A model generated the notes under the pieces. That model did no database searches, was not told the origin of the DNA, and saw only the letters and a list, made by a program, of their open reading frames with translations. From positions 1 to 32,284 of IMG/VR virus record IMGVR_UViG_3300005511_000858: 32,284 bases of DNA; one strand, written 5' to 3'. The translations under genes and the position numbers were made by a program. The DNA comes from a virus. Within the stretch, counting starts at the first letter, position 1. Each line of letters begins with the position of its first letter. Below, one piece after another: positions 21,659 through 32,075 of the stretch.

Positions 21659-23304
21659 CACAAGCTCCTGCGCAGGCGCGGCAGCAACGCGCCGCGCGAT
21701 TCGTCGTCGTCTTGGTGGCGGCCGGCGCCCATCCCGCGCGGACCGTCCAGCGCGACCGGGCCGGCCGAGGTCACTGCCTGGTAGCTGTAGGGAACGAACG
21801 GCATGCGGGTCGCCGCATAGGCGAGCACGATGGCAATGCCGGCATCGCCGTGGCGGGTGCCCCCGGCGCTGGCCGCCGCACGCAGGGCCGGCAGGCTGGC
21901 AATGCCCTTGATGATCCGGAAGGCGCGCAGATCCGCAGCGACCTCGGCGTCGCGCGGGACGGCGATCGCATCGTCCTCAAAGGCCGCCTTCACCGGCGGC
22001 ATCTCGACCCGATACCACTCGGTCGAGAACTTCACGCCCATCATGCGCTCGCCGAAGGTCTGCGTGCCGGATTCCGCGAGTGAGGCGCCGATGCCGGTGG
22101 CGTCGATCCGGCCGCCGATGAAGCGCGGCAGGGCGCGGGCGATCGCGTCACGAATTTGCTCTTGCTGCTGGAATGGCACCCGCGCGAGCTCGACCATGAA
22201 AGGCACCACCCGGCGCATCGTCCGGGTGAGCTGCATCGGGCACATCACCGTCAGGTCGCGATGGCGGCCGATGTCCATGCCGAAGGCGGACTGCAGCGCA
22301 GGGTCGAGGGTCGCTCGCATCACCGGCTCGAGCTCGTCTTCGATCCAGTGCTGGACCTCGGCCTTGCGGCGGTGCTCGGGCTCCATCGTGAAGGATTCGG
22401 GGAAAGACAGGCGCAGCACCGGAGCGTCGTGCATGCGCGCCTCGATCAGCGGACCGGGCAGCCAGGCGCCCGAGCCCTGGCTCGGGATGCAGTAGAGCTC
22501 CTCGTCGGCACCATCGCCGTATTTGCCGATGAGCTCCTCGCGCCAGTCCGCCTCCTTCTCCGGCGTCCACTCCCCATGCTTGTGGGCATTGATCAGGCAG
22601 ATGCGCTCAAACAGGCCGTCCTTCAGCGCATCGTCCAGGTCAAAGCGGATAAGGCCGTAGCGGAGCCGCTCCGCTCGGATATCGACGACGAGCTGGTTGA
22701 ACGGGTTCTCGGCGCCGTTATGCGTCGAGATGATCAGCACCTTGCCGCCCCAGATCAGGAACGCCATGGCGGCTTTGATCAGTTCCGCCAGGTTATCGAC
22801 GAAGGCGGCCTCGTCCAGCACAGCGAAACCCTGGCGGCCGCGCAAGCTGCGCGGCTTCGACGACAGCGCCACGATCGAGAAGCCTGAGGCGAAATCGATC
22901 TTCAGTGCCTGGACGCCCTTGTCCGACCCATCGTCGAAGATGACGTCGCCGGTGGCTGTGACCACCTTCTCGAAGAGGCGGGCCCACATCGCGGCAGCGT
23001 CGATGAACTCCTTCGCCATGTCATGGGACGTGCCCATGTAGAGCGTGTCCATGCCGCCGTCGGCGCGTCCGGATGCCGACCGAAGCACGGCGTCGGCCGC
23101 GGCGCCCCAGGTCGCGCCAGTCCGCCGGCTCTTCTCCACGACGACGACGTCATGCTTCTCACACTGGCGGACGATTTCAGCCTGGTAGCCGAGCAGGACA
23201 TCCGTCTCCTGCCACTCCGCCGCGGTCGCCCGGCCTTGCGCCGTGCGGATCGCGATCCATTGCTCGCGTGTCGGGCGCTCGGCTTCAACAGCTTCAGTCT
23301 TCAT
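21658..23304 (-). CDS. terL: Terminase large subunit (Mu gp28 family)
   Basis: This 548-residue packaging motor overlaps its small-subunit gene by 11 bases. The ATPase part shows the deviant Walker A E-K-S-R-R-T-G-A-T-W at 57-66, Walker B G-F-A-V-L-D-E-A at 159-166 with the catalytic Glu165, and the coupling motif S-T-H-N-G at 193-197. The RNase H-like nuclease shows F-G-M-D-I-G-R with Asp344 and R-I-D-A-T-G with Asp401 as metal ligands. In Mu-like phages it cuts next to inserted phage DNA and fills heads by the headful mode, taking along some host DNA. All key residues are present. Confidence 0.97.
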   Translation of the reverse strand: MKTEAVEAERPTREQWIAIRTAQGRATAAEWQETDVLLGYQAEIVRQCEKHDVVVVEKSRRTGATWGAAADAVLRSASGRADGGMDTLYMGTSHDMAKEFIDAAAMWARLFEKVVTATGDVIFDDGSDKGVQALKIDFASGFSIVALSSKPRSLRGRQGFAVLDEAAFVDNLAELIKAAMAFLIWGGKVLIISTHNGAENPFNQLVVDIRAERLRYGLIRFDLDDALKDGLFERICLINAHKHGEWTPEKEADWREELIGKYGDGADEELYCIPSQGSGAWLPGPLIEARMHDAPVLRLSFPESFTMEPEHRRKAEVQHWIEDELEPVMRATLDPALQSAFGMDIGRHRDLTVMCPMQLTRTMRRVVPFMVELARVPFQQQEQIRDAIARALPRFIGGRIDATGIGASLAESGTQTFGERMMGVKFSTEWYRVEMPPVKAAFEDDAIAVPRDAEVAADLRAFRIIKGIASLPALRAAASAGGTRHGDAGIAIVLAYAATRMPFVPYSYQAVTSAGPVALDGPRGMGAGRHQDDDESRGALLPRLRRSL

Positions 23305-23869
23305 CGCGCACCCCGAAGAGCTCGCGCCTGAAGGCCTTCTTCGCCTCGGCCGAGAGCCCCTTCGTCGCGCCGGTCTTCTCGATCACGGCCTCGGCGTGCT
23401 TGAGGGCCTCAGCCCGCGCCCTCTCAGCCGCGCGCTTCTCGATGGCGACGGTGCGAGCGACATCGTCCTTCGAGGCCTTGCCGAGATGGTCCAGCGCCTT
23501 TGCGATCAGCATGACCTGCATCGGCTCGAGCACGACTGCCTCGCCGTCCTCGCCCGTGTTCGCCAGCATATCGAACACGGCCTGGTGCATGAGCTCGATA
23601 TTGAGCCTGGTGGCCTTGTCGGGCTCGCTTTCGCCGAGGCGACGCACGATGACGTCCGCCACCGTCCGGCTCTTGCGCAGACGCTCGGCGATGACCTCGG
23701 CCTTCTGCAGGTGGCGATGCAACGCCGAACGCGAAGGCAGCGCCTCGACGTCGAGCTCGCGTAGCTTCGCGATGATCTCGTCCAGCGTGCGGCCCTGGTC
23801 GCGCAGCCGGCCGATCCAGTCGCGGACCTCCTCGGGCAGTCGATCGATGGAGCTCGGGCGCTTCGCCAT
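23294..23869 (-). CDS. Terminase small subunit (Mu gp27, DUF3486 family)
   Basis: The 191-residue protein begins M-A-K-R-P-S-S-I-D-R-L-P-E-E-V-R, the usual DUF3486 start. A helix-turn-helix-like segment follows (about 27-55: T-L-D-E-I-I-A-K-L, then S-R-S-A-L-H-R-H-L). The rest is long helices rich in Ala, Glu and Arg, ending in K-A-F-R-R-E-L-F-G. In Mu this protein recognises the pac end and guides TerL. Its position directly before TerL with overlapping ends agrees. Confidence 0.9.
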   Translation of the reverse strand: MAKRPSSIDRLPEEVRDWIGRLRDQGRTLDEIIAKLRELDVEALPSRSALHRHLQKAEVIAERLRKSRTVADVIVRRLGESEPDKATRLNIELMHQAVFDMLANTGEDGEAVVLEPMQVMLIAKALDHLGKASKDDVARTVAIEKRAAERARAEALKHAEAVIEKTGATKGLSAEAKKAFRRELFGVRDED

Positions 23870-24862: not shown

Positions 24863-25175
24863 TCGCCTTCTCCAGCCCTTTCAACTCGTCTTGAAACCGT
24901 GCCGCCTGGTCGGCCGCCTGCGTCTCGATGCGCGAGACGGCGAGTGCCTGATCGGCCCGCGCCTGCTGCGCCGCCGCGTTCGCCAGCGCGATCTGCTTCT
25001 CCCAGGCCGCATCCCGTTCGGCCTTCGCCGCCGTGACAGCGTCCGCAATGATGCCGCGATAGCCGGCGACGGTGCCCCAGGCCCCCAGACCGATCGCAGC
25101 AGCCAGCGCCAACACGACGAGCATGACGACGGCGGCGCGGCCGAGGCCCGTGACCTTCATGAGCCAGGCGATCAT
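24789..25175 (-). CDS. Inner-membrane spanin (Rz-like)
   Basis: The ATG at 25175 overlaps the endolysin stop (TGATG); a GTG one codon earlier is possible. The 128-residue protein has one N-terminal membrane helix (about 13-36, V-V-M-L-V-V-L-A-L-A-A-A-I-G-L-G) and then a periplasmic coiled coil rich in Ala, Gln and Glu (about 42-105). That is the layout of inner spanins. The lipoprotein partner is encoded within its 3' part. Function follows from architecture and context. Confidence 0.82.
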   Translation of the reverse strand: MIAWLMKVTGLGRAAVVMLVVLALAAAIGLGAWGTVAGYRGIIADAVTAAKAERDAAWEKQIALANAAAQQARADQALAVSRIETQAADQAARFQDELKGLEKANAELAGGDRCGIGRDRVRLLNGAR

Positions 25176-25681
25176 CACAGACCCTCGAGGCAGAGCTCGA
25201 GCTCGCCGATGCGCTGAGCGTCGCCATACTCACGGCGGCGCTTCAGCCCTGTAACGACCTGGCCGCCAGCCCTATTGAACCTGGTGAAGGCCTGGCAGCT
25301 TTCGCGGTAGTTTCCGGCACGGGCGAGATCCGCAGCTGTGGAGCTGCAAATCTTCCCAACGCCGACGTTGTAGGAGGTGGAAATGGCGACCGCCCGCCAG
25401 CTGAGCGGCTTGTCGTCGAAGCCGGCGATGCATCTTGTCAGCGGCAGATAGAAGTCGCGGTAGACCCGGTTTTCCAGCATGCCGTCGCATTCGGCCTTGG
25501 TCTTCACCATGCCGGCCGTGACGCCCTTGGTCTCGCCGTAGCAGATGTCCCAGATCTTGGCGTAACGGTCCCAATGGGACTTGAGCACCAAGCCCTCCCA
25601 CGGTTGGATCAGGACCGCGGTCGACAACCCGATGGCTGTCGTTGCGGCGATGAGAGCGGTCTTGGCGCGCTTACTCGCCAT
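25175..25681 (-). CDS. SAR-type endolysin (GH24 lysozyme family)
   Basis: The ATG at 25681 gives 168 residues and overlaps the holin-like gene by 11 bases. Residues 8-26 form a weakly hydrophobic segment rich in Ala/Thr, fitting a signal-anchor-release helix, so the enzyme would be exported by Sec and held inactive. The catalytic Glu29 (W-E-G) and Asp38 have the family's spacing, and D-I-C-Y-G-E-T (45-51) is the phage 21 R-like box. In the third position of the E-D-T triad an Asp45 stands where Thr is usual. Several Cys (47, 65 and others) could swap disulphides for activation. Confidence 0.88.
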   Translation of the reverse strand: MASKRAKTALIAATTAIGLSTAVLIQPWEGLVLKSHWDRYAKIWDICYGETKGVTAGMVKTKAECDGMLENRVYRDFYLPLTRCIAGFDDKPLSWRAVAISTSYNVGVGKICSSTAADLARAGNYRESCQAFTRFNRAGGQVVTGLKRRREYGDAQRIGELELCLEGL

Positions 25682-25898
25682 CGCCCGCTCCCGAAACCGT
25701 CTCCTGCTTGACCAGCCGGGCAACACTCGCCGCGAGCGAAGCGGCCATGACCATCAGGCTGGCGGAGGCGCGACCGTCGACCCAGTAGGAGATCCCGGCA
25801 TCGACCGCCGAGGCCACCGAAAGCAGAATGTTGAGGCGCAGCGACCAGGCGTGCTTGACGACACGCTTCCAGTTCGGGACGAGCTTCCAGCGCTTCAT
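25671..25898 (-). CDS. Holin-like small membrane protein
   Basis: The 75-residue protein has a basic N-terminus (K-R-W-K-L-V-P-N-W-K-R-V-V-K) and two hydrophobic stretches (about 22-40 and 46-62), and an acidic C-terminal tail. Size and charge pattern fit a phage holin, and it lies directly before the endolysin with overlapping ends. With a SAR endolysin it may act as a pinholin that depolarises the membrane. The family assignment is from architecture and context. Confidence 0.7.
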   Translation of the reverse strand: MKRWKLVPNWKRVVKHAWSLRLNILLSVASAVDAGISYWVDGRASASLMVMAASLAASVARLVKQETVSGAGDGE

Positions 25899-26333: not shown

Positions 26334-26696
26334 TCAGGCGAAAAGGTCGAGCTGGATCTTGGTGGGGCGGCCGTAGCGGCTCAGGATGTCATGCACCGTG
26401 TTCTCGGTGCATCCCGCTCTGAGGGCCGCCTGCTGGCGGTTCAGTCCCATGGCGATGTAGCAGAGCACCCGCCAGGGCCGCCCGAGCGGAACCTTGATCT
26501 CGCCCTTGCCGTAATGTCGATGCATCGCCTGGGCCGCGTCAAGCCCGATGATGCCGGCAAGCACGCCGCCCTCGGCCGATTCCGGAATCCACAAGCGCGT
26601 GCCGCCGCGCGCCTCGAGCAGCTTCAAAGCTGCTTCGGCGCCGATGCGCTCGACCAGGCGGGCGACGTCGTCGGTTGCGGGCGGCAGCGCGGTCAA
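26334..26696 (-). CDS. Mor-like transcription activator
   Basis: The best start is a TTG at 26696 whose TTGA overlaps the previous stop, preceded by a G-run; the protein has 120 residues. It shows G-G-T-R-L-W-I-P-E-S at 31-40, the counterpart of the G-G-x-x-L-Y-I-P strand of Mor/C activators. A helix region follows, and then a C-terminal helix-turn-helix, L-N-R-Q-Q-A-A-L-R-A-G-C-T-E-N-T-V-H-D-I-L near 84-104. In Mu, Mor is the last early gene and turns on the middle promoter. Here too it closes the early operon and is followed by the control gap and lysis genes. It may act on both middle and late genes, since no separate C gene is seen. Confidence 0.8.
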   Translation of the reverse strand: MTALPPATDDVARLVERIGAEAALKLLEARGGTRLWIPESAEGGVLAGIIGLDAAQAMHRHYGKGEIKVPLGRPWRVLCYIAMGLNRQQAALRAGCTENTVHDILSRYGRPTKIQLDLFA

Positions 26697-26932
26697 CGAG
26701 GCCCCCCCGGTTTCTGCTGCATGGCAGCGTCCAGGACGGTGACCAGGTCGCCGTTCTTCACGATGTACTTCAGGCCGTCCGCCGTAACGGTGTAGTCGGC
26801 GATGCCGGCCCGCTCGGCGGTGCGGCGTGCGCGTTCAAGGCCGCCGGCGATCAAGCCGCGCAGCTGCTCGACATCGAGCGCGCCGGATCGCTCCAGGAAG
26901 CGGACAAGGGCGTGGTCGGACACGTTGGTCAT
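26693..26932 (-). CDS. Small early protein, unknown
   Basis: The 79-residue product starts at an ATG overlapping the GemA stop (ATGA). It begins M-T-N-V-S-D-H-A-L-V-R-F-L-E-R-S-G-A-L-D-V and ends with a strand pair Y-T-V-T-A-D-G-L-K-Y-I-V-K-N-G-D-L-V-T-V-L. The helix followed by a two-stranded end with D-L-V-T-V-L faintly recalls BrnT/DUF4258-type small proteins, but the likeness is too weak to name a function. It lies between GemA and the Mor-like gene. Confidence 0.7.
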   Translation of the reverse strand: MTNVSDHALVRFLERSGALDVEQLRGLIAGGLERARRTAERAGIADYTVTADGLKYIVKNGDLVTVLDAAMQQKPGGPR

Positions 26933-27336
26933 GCTTGCCCCCGCAACCGCCTCTGCCAGGCCTTGAGCTGCTCGATCGCGTTCTGCGCGTCCTCGGGCTT
27001 CAGGAATTCCGGCGCGGCGACGCCGAAGCGGCCGTTGACCCAGGCGCGGAGCGCGTCGCGATCGGCCGCGCCGGAATGCAGCGAGCCCCACAGCGCGTAG
27101 ATCTTGCGGACGTCGGCCCGCTGCGCCGGCGGGCGCTTGGGCCCGGTCGACTGGCGCGGCTTGAAGCCGAGGCTCTTCAGCTCGGCGATGACGGCGGTCG
27201 CCTTCGCGTCGGACAGATCCTTTGCGCTATCGACGCCGGCGACGCGGAGCAGCAGCGCGCGGTATTCCGCCTCCTCGAGGCGGAGCTCCTTCTTGGCAAT
27301 GTGAATCTTCGCGAGCATGGCGGGATGGGTGCTCAT
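26929..27336 (-). CDS. gemA: GemA regulatory protein (Mu gp16, DUF1018)
   Basis: The 135-residue protein has the marks of the family: I-H-I-A-K-K-E-L-R-L-E-E-A-E-Y-R-A-L-L at 11-29, G-V-D-S-A-K-D-L-S near 34, a following helix A-V-I-A-E-L-K-S-L-G-F, and I-Y-A-L-W-G-S-L-H-S-G near 79. In Mu, GemA changes host DNA gyrase activity and the expression and timing of host cell division and replication genes. ATGA overlaps join it to both neighbours. Its presence in the early operon fits the cell-cycle theme of the genes around it. Confidence 0.9.
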   Translation of the reverse strand: MSTHPAMLAKIHIAKKELRLEEAEYRALLLRVAGVDSAKDLSDAKATAVIAELKSLGFKPRQSTGPKRPPAQRADVRKIYALWGSLHSGAADRDALRAWVNGRFGVAAPEFLKPEDAQNAIEQLKAWQRRLRGQA

Positions 27337-27557
27337 CGGCCGGCCCTCCCGATGCGGGCGAGGATCTCGACGCGCTGCCTGGTCAGCCGCTTCAACTGGC
27401 CTTCAACGATCGTCGAACGGCGCGGCGCGATACTGGCGATCACTTCCTTGAGGCGCTCCCGCTCGCCGTCGATCCGTTCCAGGTCGCCGCGCGCCAGCAA
27501 CACCGAGATGGCGGCGGCGTCGGACGGAGCGGGTCGGGGCGCGAGGAAGCGGGCCAT
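27333..27557 (-). CDS. Small helical early protein, unknown
   Basis: The ATG at 27557, two bases after the methyltransferase stop, gives 74 residues. The long frame to 27932 runs inside the methyltransferase gene and is a shadow. The product is basic and helical, with L-E-R-I-D-G-E-R-E-R-L-K-E-V-I and L-K-R-L-T-R-Q-R-V-E-I-L-A-R-I, likely a helical hairpin or coiled coil. I recognise no family. Confidence 0.7.
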   Translation of the reverse strand: MARFLAPRPAPSDAAAISVLLARGDLERIDGERERLKEVIASIAPRRSTIVEGQLKRLTRQRVEILARIGRAGR

Positions 27558-27559
27558 GG

Positions 27560-28237
27560 TCAGGCACCCGGCTCGATCAGCGGCGCCGCGGCTGGCTTCG
27601 CGAAGCGGGCGGCATCGGTGAGCATGGAGAAGGCAGCCCGGCTGCCCGGCGGGATCCAGAGCGGCGCGCGCGGCTCGGCGCCATGCTTCCAGCAGACCCA
27701 GCAATAATCCGTGGCGGTGTCGCCGCCGGGTTCCCAGCGACCGCGGTGCATCGGCACGCGCTCGACATAGTAGGCGATGACGAAGGGCGGATGATCCTGG
27801 AAGAGCTTGAAGCGCTCGACGGTGTGCAGCCACTGCGTCCGGACGAGGAGCGCGACGCCGCGCACCGAAAGCGCGATCGCCTTGCGGGCGAAGGCTACGG
27901 CCTGGTTGAAGGGCGGGTTGGTGAAGATCCAATCCGCTGCCTTCCCATCTTCCTCGGCGAGGAAATCGCAGACGCGGTCATAGCCGTAAGGGTGGATGTC
28001 GCTTGCGACGACGAGCCGGAACGCCTCACGCAGAGGCTCGGCCATGTGGCCCTCGCCGCAAGCCGGCTCCCAAATGAACTCGTCATGATCGTCACGCACG
28101 CCGAGCACCGGCACCGCGACATACTTGACGAAGGCCCGCGTCGCCCAAGGCGGCGTCGGAAAGAAGTCGAGGGAGTCAGCCGGCTCAATGCGCTGGGACG
28201 CGACGGCTGGGGAGAACGGGAGGCCGCGCTGGGTCAT
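27560..28237 (-). CDS. Orphan DNA N6-adenine methyltransferase-like protein
   Basis: The 225-residue protein shows the order of an adenine methyltransferase with the AdoMet part first. F-F-P-T-P-P at 25-30 is motif X-like, and E-P-A-C-G-E-G-H-M at 57-65 is motif I with the Gly loop. A-S-D-I-H at 78-82 is the acidic motif II, and N-P-P-F at 107-110 is motif IV, the catalytic box for N6-adenine. There is little room for a separate target-recognition domain and no restriction gene is nearby, so it is an orphan enzyme. It could protect phage DNA or change host methylation marks. It is not a CcrM homologue by motif order. Overlaps join it to the LexA-like gene. Confidence 0.82.
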   Translation of the reverse strand: MTQRGLPFSPAVASQRIEPADSLDFFPTPPWATRAFVKYVAVPVLGVRDDHDEFIWEPACGEGHMAEPLREAFRLVVASDIHPYGYDRVCDFLAEEDGKAADWIFTNPPFNQAVAFARKAIALSVRGVALLVRTQWLHTVERFKLFQDHPPFVIAYYVERVPMHRGRWEPGGDTATDYCWVCWKHGAEPRAPLWIPPGSRAAFSMLTDAARFAKPAAAPLIEPGA

Positions 28238-28557
28238 GACCTGAGCTCCCGTTCCAGGAACTCGCTCACCGCCTGCTGGACGAGGCGATCGCGCGGGACA
28301 CCGCGGCGGGCGGCGAGCTGGGCGAGCAGGCCTTCGGCATCGCCCGTTGCCTCGACGATCACGAAGGAGCGGGACCGGCGCGGCAGGTGTTTGAGATAAC
28401 CCCTCTCGACCAGCTTTATCATGCTGTGGTGGATGCTGCTGATCGACGCTATGCCGAGGGCCGCCCCGACTTCCCGAACGCTCGGGGAGACGCCGTCCCG
28501 GGACAACTGCTTGATCGTTGCCAGGACGTCGGCCTGGCGCCGCGTTAGGCCCATCAT
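28234..28557 (-). CDS. LexA-type winged-helix protein without protease domain
   Basis: The ATG at 28557 overlaps the ASCH stop (ATGA); the next codon is also ATG, giving 106 or 107 residues. Residues 2-65 match the LexA DNA-binding domain: L-T-R-R-Q-A-D-V-L-A-T-I, S-P-S-V-R-E-V-G-A-A-L-G-I, S-I-S-S-I-H-H-S-M-I-K-L-V-E-R-G-Y-L. No S24 peptidase follows. The C-terminal 40 residues are helical (A-A-R-R-G-V-P-R-D-R-L-V-Q-Q-A-V), perhaps for dimerisation. It would bind DNA but could not undergo self-cleavage, so it may be a fixed repressor of phage or host SOS-type operators. Confidence 0.82.
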   Translation of the reverse strand: MMGLTRRQADVLATIKQLSRDGVSPSVREVGAALGIASISSIHHSMIKLVERGYLKHLPRRSRSFVIVEATGDAEGLLAQLAARRGVPRDRLVQQAVSEFLERELRS

Positions 28558-28967
28558 CGCGCCGGCTCCCAACGGATCAGCACGCCGGCGAAGGCCAGTT
28601 CGGGATCGGAGGCCTCGGAATGCTCCGCCTGCCAGAACGCCTGCAGATCAGCCCAGTGGAGGAAGCCGTCCTGCCGGGCGAACTCGTCGAGCATCGCGGT
28701 GATGCCGAAGGCTTCGCCGGTGTCGGTGAAGCGGACATAACCGCGGGCGATGAGAAGCTCGACGGACCGCACCGAGACGCAGACAGGGTCCGGGATGATC
28801 TTGCGGCAATGCTTCGTCCGCATGCCTTGGTAGATCTGCAGGAGCTCGCCTGGACGTGCGTGACGCGCCCGCGGCGCGCGGATGGTCTGGCGCTTGATGA
28901 TCCCGGTGGCCGGGTGGCCGCTGGCGATCGGCTCGGCGAAGCGCTTGTTGAAGGAATAGGCGACCAT
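28554..28967 (-). CDS. ASCH-domain protein
   Basis: The 137-residue protein begins M-V-A-Y-S-F-N-K-R-F-A-E-P-I and has I-K-R-Q-T-I-R-A near 24-31, then A-R-P-G-E-L-L-Q-I-Y-Q-G-M-R-T near 37-51. This is the ASCH order, with the conserved Lys/Thr/Arg lining a pocket. ASCH proteins bind RNA or act on modified nucleosides. The last 60 residues hold a D-G-F-L-H-W-A-D-L-Q-A-F-W segment. Similar genes are frequent in early regions of Mu-like phages of rhizobia; role unknown. Confidence 0.8.
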   Translation of the reverse strand: MVAYSFNKRFAEPIASGHPATGIIKRQTIRAPRARHARPGELLQIYQGMRTKHCRKIIPDPVCVSVRSVELLIARGYVRFTDTGEAFGITAMLDEFARQDGFLHWADLQAFWQAEHSEASDPELAFAGVLIRWEPAR

Positions 28968-29224
28968 CAGGCCGGTTCCTTCTTCGCAAGTACTGCCGCT
29001 CTCGCCTCGGCCGACAGCTTGAGGAAGGCGCGGATCTCATCGGCGTTCTTCGCCAGCGTCTCCAGCGTGCGCTGGGCGCTCTCCAAGCAGGCGAGGCCAC
29101 GCTCGGCGATCGCCGGCTTCCTGAGCTCGCGGATCTTGGCGCCCTTCATCATGCTCTGCTGCCGCACGATGGCGAACTTGACCTCCTCGATCTGCTGGAC
29201 GAGCGGGATGGCAGGGGCGCTCAT
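28967..29224 (-). CDS. Small helical early protein, unknown
   Basis: The 85-residue protein overlaps both neighbours (ATGA and TGATG). It is almost wholly helical: V-Q-Q-I-E-E-V-K-F-A-I-V-R-Q-Q-S-M-M near the start, then A-C-L-E-S-A-Q-R-T-L-E-T-L and a final Ala/Lys helix. A coiled-coil dimer is likely. I recognise no family and can say only that it is translationally coupled to the CtrA-like gene before it. Confidence 0.72.
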   Translation of the reverse strand: MSAPAIPLVQQIEEVKFAIVRQQSMMKGAKIRELRKPAIAERGLACLESAQRTLETLAKNADEIRAFLKLSAEARAAVLAKKEPA

Positions 29225-30033
29225 GCCCGGAATCCCGCTTGGCGCAGCATCTCGCGGAGGATGCCCTTCGAGGTGGCGTCCATGCCGTAGAAGCCGCGCC
29301 CGAGCGTCTTGATGCTGATGTCCAGCTCGGCCAGGCGCGGGCGCATCTTGCTAAGCCAGACGTCGACGACCTTCGCGTCGCGGTCATCATCACCCCCGGC
29401 GGGGTCATGCGTCGCCGCGAGCAGCGCCTCCCGCGACATGTCCTTGCCGCGGAAGAGCGCCTCCAGAATCGCAGCCTCGGCCGGTGCGAAACGGACGGAC
29501 CCGAATTCGCGTGGAAATCGGTTCGTGACACCGAGCGCCTGCAAGATCTGGCGGTTGCCTGCCTCGATCTCGCCGGCTGGGATGACCTCGCGCACGGGTG
29601 CCACGTCTGGCGCCTTCGGGGCAGACGGGGCCGGCAGCGCGAGGCGCCGGCCGAACTCCACGGGCACCTCGACGAGCAAGCGCTTGCCGATCGCGTCGAC
29701 ATAGAATTCCGGCTCAATGCGATCGTCGGAGAAGACCAGGCCAGCCGGCACAGGCACGGTGATGCGCGAGGCGCCTCCCTTCGGATAGGCATGCGCCTCG
29801 AAACGCGCCTGCGGGCCGGACTTGACTAGCAGCATGCGCTTTGCCGCATTCCACGCCACGTCGTAGCGGGGGCCGCCAATCTCATCGAGGATCTCGTTGC
29901 GGAAGATCAGCAGGAGGCGCTCGGCCGAGCGCATCCGCGAGAAGGCAAGGCGCAGATCGACGCGGCGCTGGCCCTTGGCCGCCGGCTGAAGCTCGAGGAA
30001 GCCGGCCTCGTCGAAGTCAACGAATGCGTTCAT
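29221..30033 (-). CDS. Protein with CtrA/OmpR-type winged-helix DNA-binding end
   Basis: The 270-residue protein has a mixed alpha/beta N-terminal part (1-125) that I do not recognise, a Pro-rich linker (132-152), and a C-terminal winged helix (about 178-252). The latter reads F-A-P-A-E-A-A-I-L-E-A-L-F, M-S-R-E-A-L-L-A-A-T, D-A-K-V-V-D-V-W-L-S-K-M-R-P-R-L and I-K-T-L-G-R-G-F-Y-G. This is the order of response-regulator output domains, and the K-V-V-D-V-W-L-S-K-M-R box is close to that of CtrA. No receiver domain with a phosphorylated Asp is present. It may bind host CtrA-type sites without phosphorylation control; this is inference. Confidence 0.72.
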   Translation of the reverse strand: MNAFVDFDEAGFLELQPAAKGQRRVDLRLAFSRMRSAERLLLIFRNEILDEIGGPRYDVAWNAAKRMLLVKSGPQARFEAHAYPKGGASRITVPVPAGLVFSDDRIEPEFYVDAIGKRLLVEVPVEFGRRLALPAPSAPKAPDVAPVREVIPAGEIEAGNRQILQALGVTNRFPREFGSVRFAPAEAAILEALFRGKDMSREALLAATHDPAGGDDDRDAKVVDVWLSKMRPRLAELDISIKTLGRGFYGMDATSKGILREMLRQAGFRA

Positions 30034-30296
30034 GCGAAGGCCTCCAGAAGATCGGGCTGGGTTTCGACCGCCGGTTGGCGGCTCTTGATGCTGGGTTCGC
30101 CGGCGAAGCTGGGGCGCGGGCCCGGCTGGTACATGCCGACGACGTGTACGGCGCAGTAGGAGGTCAGGCCGGAGACGGGCTCGCCGCAGATCCGGGCCTT
30201 GCCGAAGGCGTCGCCTTTGAGTGACGGCGGCTCGACGGCCTCACAGACGATCGCGCGGCACTGGCCGGAGCGGGCGCGGGAAAGGAGGACGCTCAC
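30030..30296 (-). CDS. GcrA-type zinc-tail protein
   Basis: A GTG overlapping the previous stop (GTGA) opens this 88-residue protein. Its Cys/His pattern matches the C-terminal domain of GcrA: Q-C-R-A-I-V-C near 12-18, then I-C-G-E-P-V near 36-41, S-Y-C-A-V-H near 46-51, and a Tyr after that. In GcrA this domain contacts the sigma-70 domain 2 of RNA polymerase, while its N-terminal HTH reads methylated GANTC sites. Here no HTH is attached; an HTH protein is encoded two genes upstream. The last 30 residues are Pro-rich. It might compete with GcrA for RNA polymerase or deliver polymerase to phage promoters. Confidence 0.65.
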   Translation of the reverse strand: MSVLLSRARSGQCRAIVCEAVEPPSLKGDAFGKARICGEPVSGLTSYCAVHVVGMYQPGPRPSFAGEPSIKSRQPAVETQPDLLEAFA

Positions 30297-30541
30297 CGGC
30301 GGCCCTCCCGCTCCATCCGGTCGAGCTCGCGGCGCGCGTCCTCGATCGAGCCGAACTGCTCGAGGCGCTGGCGGGCTTCGGCGACCACCATGACGACGAG
30401 CGAGGCGAAGAAGAAGGCGGCCGCCAGCGACGTCCCGGTGGCGATCGCTCCGGCGAAGATTCCGGCAACCATGACGATGGCGAGGACGGTGATAGTCAGG
30501 GCGCCGCGACCATCGGCCCGGATGTAAAGAATGGGCTTCAT
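30293..30541 (-). CDS. Small membrane protein, unknown
   Basis: The ATG at 30541 (overlapping the previous stop as TGATG) gives 82 residues. Two hydrophobic segments lie at about 15-32 and 36-54 (A-L-T-I-T-V-L-A-I-V-M-V-A-G and A-A-A-F-F-F-A-S-L-V-V-M-V-V), followed by a charged helix E-A-R-Q-R-L-E-Q-F. A small inner-membrane protein with a cytoplasmic helix is likely. In an early operon it could act in superinfection exclusion, but nothing in the sequence proves it. Confidence 0.7.
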   Translation of the reverse strand: MKPILYIRADGRGALTITVLAIVMVAGIFAGAIATGTSLAAAFFFASLVVMVVAEARQRLEQFGSIEDARRELDRMEREGRR

Positions 30542-30918
30542 CAAGCGGCCTCCTCCGCGATCGCCTCGCGGCGGGCGAGCGTCATGAGGCGGCCCGCGAT
30601 CGAATTCGGCTTCCGACCAAGTCGGCGGGCAATCTCGGAGTTGCTGGCGCGGGCGAGCGCCATTTCGGAGAGGACGGCATCCTCCTCCGGCGTATAGGGG
30701 CGCACCTGGTAGCCGCAGCGCTGATAGACGGTGCCGGCCTTGAGCGTGCTAGCCCGCAGCCGCGTGCCTGGATGCTCGATGCCATGGCGCAGGCACTGCC
30801 AGGAGACGGCGCCGGGCGAGATGCCGAGCTCCGCGGCGATGCGCTTGACCGACCAGCCGCGCTCCTCGCGAAGCTCGGCCAGGCGCCCTATGTCGATCCT
30901 GCTCTTGAAGCCCCGCAT
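30541..30918 (-). CDS. Double helix-turn-helix (SANT/GcrA-N-like) DNA-binding protein
   Basis: The ATG at 30918 gives 125 residues; the longer frame to 31128 is a shadow of the next gene. The N-terminal half has an HTH (W-S-V-K-R-I-A-A-E-L-G-I-S-P-G-A-V-S near 21-38). The C-terminal half has Y-T-P-E-E-D-A-V-L-S-E-M near 74, then S-N-S-E-I-A-R-R-L-G-R-K-P-N-S-I-A-G-R-L. The second repeat resembles SANT/Myb-like and GcrA N-terminal HTHs, which also read E-I-A-x-x-L-G then V-x-G-R/K. It ends Ala/Glu-rich. With the GcrA-type tail protein two genes later it may supply the two halves of GcrA. Confidence 0.72.
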   Translation of the reverse strand: MRGFKSRIDIGRLAELREERGWSVKRIAAELGISPGAVSWQCLRHGIEHPGTRLRASTLKAGTVYQRCGYQVRPYTPEEDAVLSEMALARASNSEIARRLGRKPNSIAGRLMTLARREAIAEEAA

Positions 30919-30925
30919 GGCGCCC

Positions 30926-31579
30926 TCACGCCGCTGCGAGATCAATGGTGACCGCGCGCCAGGGGCCCGAGGCCTGATTGCGGCGATAGAAGCGGATGTA
31001 TTCCTTGGTGCCCGTGACGCGGATGGCGTCGCGCACCGCATCCATGGCGCGCTTCCAGCGCTCGTCCTCGATGCCGACGCGCAGCAACGAGAAGAGCTCA
31101 GCCTTGTTGATCTGGCCCTCCTTCTCAACGCTGAAGACGCGGTTGACCAGGGCGCGCAGCTCCGGCCCGCTATCGGCGCCCCAGGCCAGGAGGCACTCGT
31201 CGATCAGCTTCTTCGCCTGCTGCAGCTGCGGCCCGAACGAGATCTGATCGGCGATCTGGACTTGGACCTTCATCAGGCCGTCGAAGGTCTGGAAGGTGAC
31301 GTTGCCCTTCGGGCCACCGGCGCGCGCGCCGTAGTCCTGCTCGAGCAGCGACTGGAAGCTGTTGAGGTCGGCGAAGGTGTGGCCCTTGAAGCGGGCCACC
31401 TGCGCCGAGAGCGCCTCCGCGAACGACATCACCTTGCGGACGATCTCGTCCTCGAGCTTGTCGGCGGGCTTCACCGCCTCGAGCGGGATCAGCGCGCCCT
31501 TCGCATCGGGCATGTAGAGTTTGCCGCCGACGTTGACGGCGCCGGTCGGCAAGGCGTTTTCGGCAGTCTCAGGCTGCAT
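30926..31579 (-). CDS. DUF3164 family early protein
   Basis: The ATG at 31579 overlaps the DnaA-like stop by 11 bases and gives 217 residues. The extended frame to 31900 is low-complexity shadow sequence. The protein has the family order: G-A-L-I-P-L-E-A-V-K-P near 28, K-V-M-S-F-A-E near 50, F-K-G-H-T-F near 64, L-L-E-Q-D-Y-G near 80, G-N-V-T-F-Q-T-F-D-G near 95, and G-T-K-E-Y-I-R-F-Y near 194. DUF3164 genes are regular members of the early region of Mu-like phages, a few genes after the transposase pair. Biochemical function is unknown. Its presence shows the transposition genes should lie just to the right. Confidence 0.9.
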   Translation of the reverse strand: MQPETAENALPTGAVNVGGKLYMPDAKGALIPLEAVKPADKLEDEIVRKVMSFAEALSAQVARFKGHTFADLNSFQSLLEQDYGARAGGPKGNVTFQTFDGLMKVQVQIADQISFGPQLQQAKKLIDECLLAWGADSGPELRALVNRVFSVEKEGQINKAELFSLLRVGIEDERWKRAMDAVRDAIRVTGTKEYIRFYRRNQASGPWRAVTIDLAAA

Positions 31580-32075
31580 CTTTGGACTCCGGGTTGGGGG
31601 AAGGTTCGAAAGGCGGAGGGACGTCGCCCTGGTCGGCGGCATCGACGACGACGCGGCAGAGCGCGATGATTTCGGCGGTGGACACGCGCACCGCCTCGCG
31701 CTCCGGCCGGGCGAGCACGCGCCGGGCTGTCGCGATCGGATCGACGGCCGCGGCCAAATTAAGATGGCCGGCGCGCTCCAACTCGAGCAGGGTCGTGAAG
31801 AGCGCATCGGTCGCGGCCCGGAACTCGGGATCGCGAGCGCGCTCTTCCTCCGCCCGCTGGATGGCGTGCCAGACGGTCGATGGATCCCGGCGCGTCGCAT
31901 CGCCGATCCGGATCGTCGACAGCGTGGTCAGCTTGGACGCCAGCCAGAAGAGCGTGAACCGGGCTGCAATGAGCTCGGGTGCTCGCCGGTCCGATAGGAT
32001 TTCGCGGCGCGTCAAGCCGGACGCGACCTCGACGGCGGCAATGATCTGGCCGAGGCTGACGGGGAGCTCGCTCAC
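31569..32075 (-). CDS. Stand-alone DnaA domain IV-like DNA-binding protein
   Basis: A GTG overlapping the preceding stop (GTGA) gives 168 residues. The first 80 read as the DnaA DNA-binding domain: I-I-A-A-V-E-V-A-S-G-L-T-R-R-E-I-L-S-D-R-R at 11-31, A-A-R-F-T-L-F-W-L-A-S-K-L-T near 37-50, I-R-I-G near 55-58, and R-R-D-P-S-T-V-W-H-A-I-Q-R-A near 62-75. The last is the counterpart of the D-H-T-T-V box that reads DnaA boxes. There is no AAA+ part. The second half is helical and Pro-rich at the end. It may compete for DnaA boxes and hold back host replication, or act on the phage genome; this is inference. Confidence 0.8.
   Translation of the reverse strand: MSELPVSLGQIIAAVEVASGLTRREILSDRRAPELIAARFTLFWLASKLTTLSTIRIGDATRRDPSTVWHAIQRAEEERARDPEFRAATDALFTTLLELERAGHLNLAAAVDPIATARRVLARPEREAVRVSTAEIIALCRVVVDAADQGDVPPPFEPSPNPESKDAA

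Follow-up and report, generated by a model that had tools for sequence, protein, structure and literature searches.

What are pieces of DnaA, GcrA and CtrA, regulators of the alphaproteobacterial cell cycle, doing side by side in the early operon of a Mu-like phage? The locus that raises this question lies in the IMG/VR virus record IMGVR_UViG_3300005511_000858, a truncated Mu-like phage whose entire 32,284 bases are referred to here as the window. From the letters alone, an original prediction had placed a DnaA domain IV (DnaA-IV) protein, a GcrA-N-like helix-turn-helix (HTH) protein, a GcrA-type zinc tail, a CtrA-type winged helix, an adenine methyltransferase and GemA in one early operon, and had read them as a module that reads or rewires the host cycle. 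All named open reading frames (ORFs) are indeed found on the minus strand within one overlapping early operon (Table 1), and the DnaA-, GcrA- and CtrA-like proteins each lack the regulated part of their counterparts, as had been claimed. Three of the four proposed relationships to regulators (DnaA-IV, GcrA tail and CtrA winged helix) hold up, whereas GcrA-N, and likewise the comparison with the methyltransferase CcrM, do not. Our own answer, to which we give about an even chance, is that a recombining early slot repeatedly captures truncated host regulators, which are probably competitors of host CtrA, DnaA, GcrA and LexA. Across related viruses, the slot holds a changing toolbox of pieces in different mixtures per virus, rather than one fixed circuit.

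To follow the pieces beyond the window, relatives were collected with the phage protein DUF3164 as an anchor, yielding 56 viral contigs and 9 genome loci (numbered with the prefix L), the latter from Bosea, Methylobacterium, Hoeflea, Brucella/Ochrobactrum and other hosts; the host class assigned to the viral contigs rests on similarity, and all presence counts are lower bounds because many contigs are fragments. The DUF3164 tree comprises 60 rows, 13 of them forming the clade of the window.

The identity of the DnaA-like protein is strongly supported by its sequence, as Bac_DnaA_C (PF08299) scored 44.9 bits against a cut-off of 31.5, and family model searches with the 168 amino acids (aa) found domain IV only and no AAA+ ATPase domain. 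The RDH(T/S)(T/S)V signature for contact with the DnaA box is kept in most relatives and reads RDPSTV in the window. Orthologues occur in all 13 clade members, and in this clade as well as in phage RC1 the gene is located between the transposition genes and DUF3164. Furthermore, DnaA-IV exceeded the cut-off in 17 of 51 relatives versus none of 36 gammaproteobacterial-type Mu-like phages (Fisher p 4.5e-5), and is thus restricted to alphaproteobacterial-type Mu-like phages. The phage DnaA-IV protein also has a conserved C-terminal extension, which in L013, L019 and L020 is present in proteins without a matched DnaA domain IV.

For the GcrA-type tail, we consider the identity with the C-terminal part of GcrA good on sequence grounds. 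A Pfam search with the window tail did not match PF07750 (GcrA), and two of its orthologues had GcrA as their top, albeit weak, match (13.6 and 16.4 bits versus a cut-off of 26.9). Profile-profile comparison by hhalign, however, aligned the tail family (the window and L002, L009, L035, L036, L050 and L063; orthologues 47-54% identical) with the GcrA C-terminal domain at a probability of 93.9% and E 1.5e-7. The Cys/His arrangement C[RK]..CG-x9-C-x2-H-x4-[YF] has exactly the spacing found in GcrA, and among the 14,919 ORFs of the window and 70 relatives the loose pattern C[RKH]-x(8,35)-CG-x(8,10)-C-x2-[HC]-x4-[YF] retrieved only GcrAs, the tails and one unrelated ORF. A sequence search of the PDB with the tails gave no match, and hence no link to the structure of the sigma-interacting domain by that route. 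The N-terminal DNA-binding domain of GcrA is absent from the 88-aa protein. GcrA itself contacts sigma region 2 through its C-terminal domain (residues 108-173) and methylated DNA through a separate N-terminal one (PMC7403470); a lone tail should therefore bind sigma but not be directed to DNA. L087 from Ochrobactrum teleogrylli also has a GcrA C-terminal domain that stands alone (G054:C2:135779-135985; 104-aa ORF, profile 86-153, 46.7 bits).

The HTH protein encoded two genes further upstream was tried as the missing GcrA N-terminal half. In a single-sequence hhalign comparison it reached 79.8% to GcrA-N, but across a generic HTH; a hidden Markov model (HMM) of host GcrA-N missed it, and its matches were generic HTH families and the phage T5 D5-like regulator, so that this part of the original prediction is abandoned. 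No orthologue was found among the relatives, the window being the only member of the set with this protein.

The CtrA assignment of the window protein is of moderate strength on sequence evidence, and we approached it through its relatives. Direct scores were weak, with Trans_reg_C at 16 bits, under the Pfam cut-off, and the NCBIfam CtrA model at 11.5 bits, tied with RpaB. For the stand-alone winged helices of L022, L048 and L009, the CtrA model beats every other response-regulator model. That of L022 found matches in 82 of 115 alphaproteobacterial genomes, the best being ORFs of ~240 aa with ~47% identity; 29 full-length host matches read as CtrA and have the same KI[IV]DVF[VI]CKLRKKL recognition helix, and the second-best OmpR-like ORFs scored far below. 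An HMM built from host CtrA domains only, run against the 14,919 ORFs, retrieved L022, L048 and L009, followed by L018 and the window (E 0.0022). L018 shares the two-domain architecture of the window protein at 38% identity, and its N-domain is similar to a protein of Microcystis phage yong2. A receiver with a phosphorylatable Asp was found in none of them, as the window and L018 have another N-domain and L009, L022 and L048 have no N-domain at all. The predicted structure of the window protein is confident in its C-terminal part (residues ~170-265), whose best structural matches are DNA-binding domains of the OmpR family (Z up to 9.3, root-mean-square deviation 2.2 over 76 residues); since the alignment behind the model included other phage winged helices, this supports the fold and not the CtrA identity. 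A tblastn search with the window protein gave one partial phage match, confined to the N-domain, and hit no viral contig and none of five host genomes. A ParB-like/DUF6551 protein adjoins the CtrA winged helix or the GcrA tail in several relatives, though not in the window.

A fourth regulator fragment, overlooked by the original prediction, is a LexA DNA-binding domain, an identity strongly supported at the sequence level (PF01726, 52.6 bits versus a cut-off of 23.7). Only the N-terminal part of LexA was matched in these proteins of 106-112 aa, and no autopeptidase domain was found. Orthologues are present in L002, L009/L064, L063 and L070, and a more distant one in L055. The occurrence of peptidase-less LexA domains in Mu-like phages as distantly related as the window and L055 (9398-9790) hints at SOS-box binding independent of RecA.

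The predicted adenine methyltransferase is a real one, belonging to phrog_799, though not of the CcrM type: it has no PF01555 match, its motif I (residue 57) precedes motif IV (107), unlike in the beta class, and its weak similarity is to TaqI. In L050, an MT-A70 enzyme lies directly upstream of gemA instead, and L035, L063 and L070 have, as read from sequence only, a different methyltransferase-like protein upstream of gemA or nearby. Transposable phages generally count GemA and a DNA methyltransferase among their best-conserved genes (PMC8705779), and neither therefore marks an alphaproteobacterial circuit.

All pieces but DnaA-IV turn over rapidly, with many gains or losses. On the DUF3164 tree, the GcrA tail and the LexA domain, with 7 carriers each, and the CtrA domain, with 5, require five changes apiece, and the methyltransferase, with 13 carriers, requires eight. 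In other relatives, the same early slot holds full-length GcrA or stand-alone CtrA domains; full-length GcrA, for instance, is encoded directly downstream of DUF3164 in relatives that include Brucella and Ochrobactrum prophages. Whole or partial GcrA exceeded the cut-off in 5 of 51 relatives, and Trans_reg_C in 3 of 51 (p 0.26), versus none of the 36 gammaproteobacterial-type phages in either case. The co-conservation expected from the original prediction was not observed beyond DnaA-IV: the DnaA-IV, GcrA tail, CtrA domain, LexA domain and methyltransferase occur together in only two of the 60 rows, the window and L009, the phage of Methylobacterium metagenome-assembled genome locus L064 (identical DUF3164).

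The relatives also share a peculiarity of composition. GANTC, the CcrM/GcrA methylation site, is far rarer than expected in most Mu-like phages of the alphaproteobacterial type (L003, L004, L010, L009, L048 and the window), with a single site in 17.8 kb of L003 (StopSmel) versus 98 expected, 8 versus 184 in L010 and 40 versus 178 in the window, a deficit that partly reflects codon use because the expectation comes from a first-order Markov model. Two gammaproteobacterial Mu-like phages are mildly depleted (22 versus 43 and 25 versus 45 expected). Among the depleted phages, L004 (MZ436628.1) is the Mu-like phage Mwe-Yong1, recorded with Microcystis as its host, whose DUF3164 is 63% identical to that of the window; an alphaproteobacterium present in the culture may be the actual host.

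How could such a slot serve the phage? We propose that alphaproteobacterial Mu-like phages have a rapidly recombining region, bounded by the transposition genes and gemA/mor, which repeatedly takes up pieces of host cell-cycle and SOS regulators able to bind DNA or RNA polymerase. These are DnaA-IV, GcrA (whole or as its tail), the winged helix of CtrA and the LexA domain; four such pieces have accumulated in the window phage. Each is devoid of a different part, namely the AAA+ domain of DnaA, the DNA-binding domain of GcrA, the receiver of CtrA and the peptidase of LexA; as the host controls its regulators through these parts, the pieces are most likely constitutive competitors at host sites. 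Putative targets would be CtrA boxes, DnaA boxes, region 2 of sigma70 (for the GcrA tail) and SOS boxes (for the LexA domain). Replication initiation and transcription might thus be freed, or kept in a condition that favours replicative transposition, whatever the phase of the host cell cycle; the binding to host sites, the competition and the phage benefit are what we infer here. A more far-reaching version, in which repeated capture has furnished dominant-negative fragments for every node of the DnaA-GcrA-CtrA cycle as well as for LexA, uncoupling the infected cell during replicative transposition, appears doubtful to us.

Several observations weigh against capture for competition. In the window, the CtrA domain has diverged, scoring 18 bits against the HMM of host CtrA, and where DnaA has the H of its DH(T/S) signature the DnaA-IV protein has P, so that the specificity of both may have changed. 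Moreover, the W of the GcrA tail is A in the window, and an AlphaFold2 model of the tail, one of the structure predictions suggested originally, was unusable (predicted local distance difference test 45). The phage DNA examined has no or almost no full CtrA sites and DnaA boxes, which is uninformative because only ~0-1 are expected. The domains might just as well be regulators of the phage itself. The strongest rival, although somewhat unlikely in our judgement, holds that they are transcription or replication factors of the phage, derived from common DNA-binding folds and acting on phage promoters or ends. It is most plausible for DnaA-IV, which stands alone among the pieces in occurring in all clade members, always between the transposition genes and DUF3164, and which may help to load the host replisome on transposition intermediates; small HTH proteins, too, are usual in early operons. 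Yet the CtrA and GcrA pieces match host cell-cycle regulators rather than generic families, gammaproteobacterial-type relatives lack these families above the cut-off, and the phage pieces examined yielded no CtrA sites or DnaA boxes, though few were expected.

That the pieces jointly read or rewire the DnaA-GcrA-CtrA-methylation cycle as a coordinated module, as first proposed, would accord with the presence of all five in a single operon of the window and L009/L064. We nevertheless regard it as improbable, since the two are alone among the 60 relatives and their CtrA proteins differ in architecture, the methyltransferase is TaqI-like rather than CcrM-like and exchanged for MT-A70 in L050, no GcrA N-domain was found with the host GcrA-N HMM, and paired tests on the tree had too few informative pairs to support any association. 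Hardly more credit, and if anything less, can be given to a role in counter-defence or control of lysogeny, with the LexA domain and the methyltransferase tuning SOS induction and protecting DNA while the pieces of DnaA, GcrA and CtrA decay as passengers. This explanation fits the turnover of methyltransferases in the slot, the MT-A70 enzyme next to gemA in L050, the LexA domain of several clade members and the diverged CtrA domain of the window. However, the tails and DnaA-IV keep their Cys/His and core residues invariant at ~50% identity, a conservation that is not decay.

The record has the layout of a Mu-like transposable phage: GemA and gp27 score over their cut-offs, Mor is weak and the gene order is of the Mu type. 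The distal part of the early operon forms the right end of the record on the minus strand, with the transposase genes and the early promoter beyond the record end. Its 15 ORFs run in series from 32,269 down to 26,334; neighbours overlap by 1-11 bases, mostly 4, and the sole gap measures 7 bases. At the opposite end, a 261-aa ORF (1-786) on the plus strand, opposite to all phage genes and with no Pfam match, is possibly host flank or a moron gene.

Table 1. Features of the window and, in the last row, positions in relatives.
Feature	Position	Strand	Basis or remark
DnaA domain IV (DNA-binding) protein, stand-alone	31569-32075	-	Pfam PF08299
DUF3164, core protein of this phage type	30926-31579	-	PF11363, 243 bits
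Protein with two generic HTH motifs, phage T5 D5-like	30541-30918	-	generic HTH family and D5-like matches
Small predicted membrane protein	30293-30544	-	hydrophobic sequence; no family match over cut-off
GcrA sigma70-interacting-domain-like zinc tail, stand-alone	30030-30296	-	hhalign and Cys/His signature
N-domain (~residues 1-130) and C-terminal CtrA/OmpR-type winged helix (~170-265), no receiver	29221-30033	-	
Small conserved early protein, 85 aa	28967-29224	-	homologues in most of the window's clade
phrog_8581 family early protein	28554-28967	-	phrog_8581 match; widespread among relatives
LexA DNA-binding domain with short C-terminal extension, no peptidase	28234-28554	-	PF01726
DNA methyltransferase, phrog_799	27560-28237	-	TaqI-like rather than CcrM-like
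GemA	26929-27336	-	PF06252, 99.5 bits
Mor-like middle regulator, end of early operon	26334-26696	-	weak PF08765 and HTH matches, position
Lysozyme	25175-25726		late gene
gp27	23294-23869		late gene, score over cut-off
ParB-like/DUF6551 protein	L009:10224-11138; L048:10132-10956; L022:10812-11663; L050:9793-10647; L063:10948-12024		

Gathered in one early slot, stand-alone GcrA tails, receiverless CtrA domains and AAA-less DnaA-IV would be dominant fragments, provided by nature, of the cell cycle of alphaproteobacteria. Should they be competitors, CtrA, GcrA or DnaA could readily be switched off in cells with their help, and the cell-cycle state would be a barrier that phages replicating by transposition must overcome. 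Two papers on alphaproteobacterial Mu-like phages (PMC5488378, PMC8601537) make no mention of these domains, and in the open literature searched, with most subscription journals outside it, we found none that describes a receiverless CtrA domain or a stand-alone GcrA tail encoded by a phage.

Single phage homologues, as the original prediction rightly stated, are already known for GcrA (PMC3556154) and for CcrM-like methyltransferases (PMC9437464). According to the passages of PMC9437464 and PMC12429752 that cite them, Sinorhizobium phages such as phiLM21 likewise bring a methyltransferase into alphaproteobacterial hosts, one that is CcrM-like and in this respect unlike the window enzyme with its TaqI-like similarity and motif I before IV. 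The stand-alone winged helices of L022, L048 and L009 belong to phrog_31800, a ‘transcriptional regulator’ family with a response-regulator winged helix, which the window and L018 proteins with their extra N-domain do not reach. Phage gene expression has also been tied to the CtrA cycle through CtrA-binding sites, with lytic deferment as the proposed outcome (PMC9437464); those phages carry sites for host CtrA, whereas the window has no full CtrA sites and itself encodes a receiverless CtrA-type domain. The closest precedent are the Caulobacter phages phiCbK, Magneto, Swift, Karma and Rogue, which likewise contain a GcrA piece, proposed to alter the replicative state of the host (PMC3556154). 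Their GcrA family members were recognised via Pfam PF07750, whereas the window has the C-terminal tail only and in a Mu-like phage; other Mu-like relatives do include carriers of full-length GcrA.

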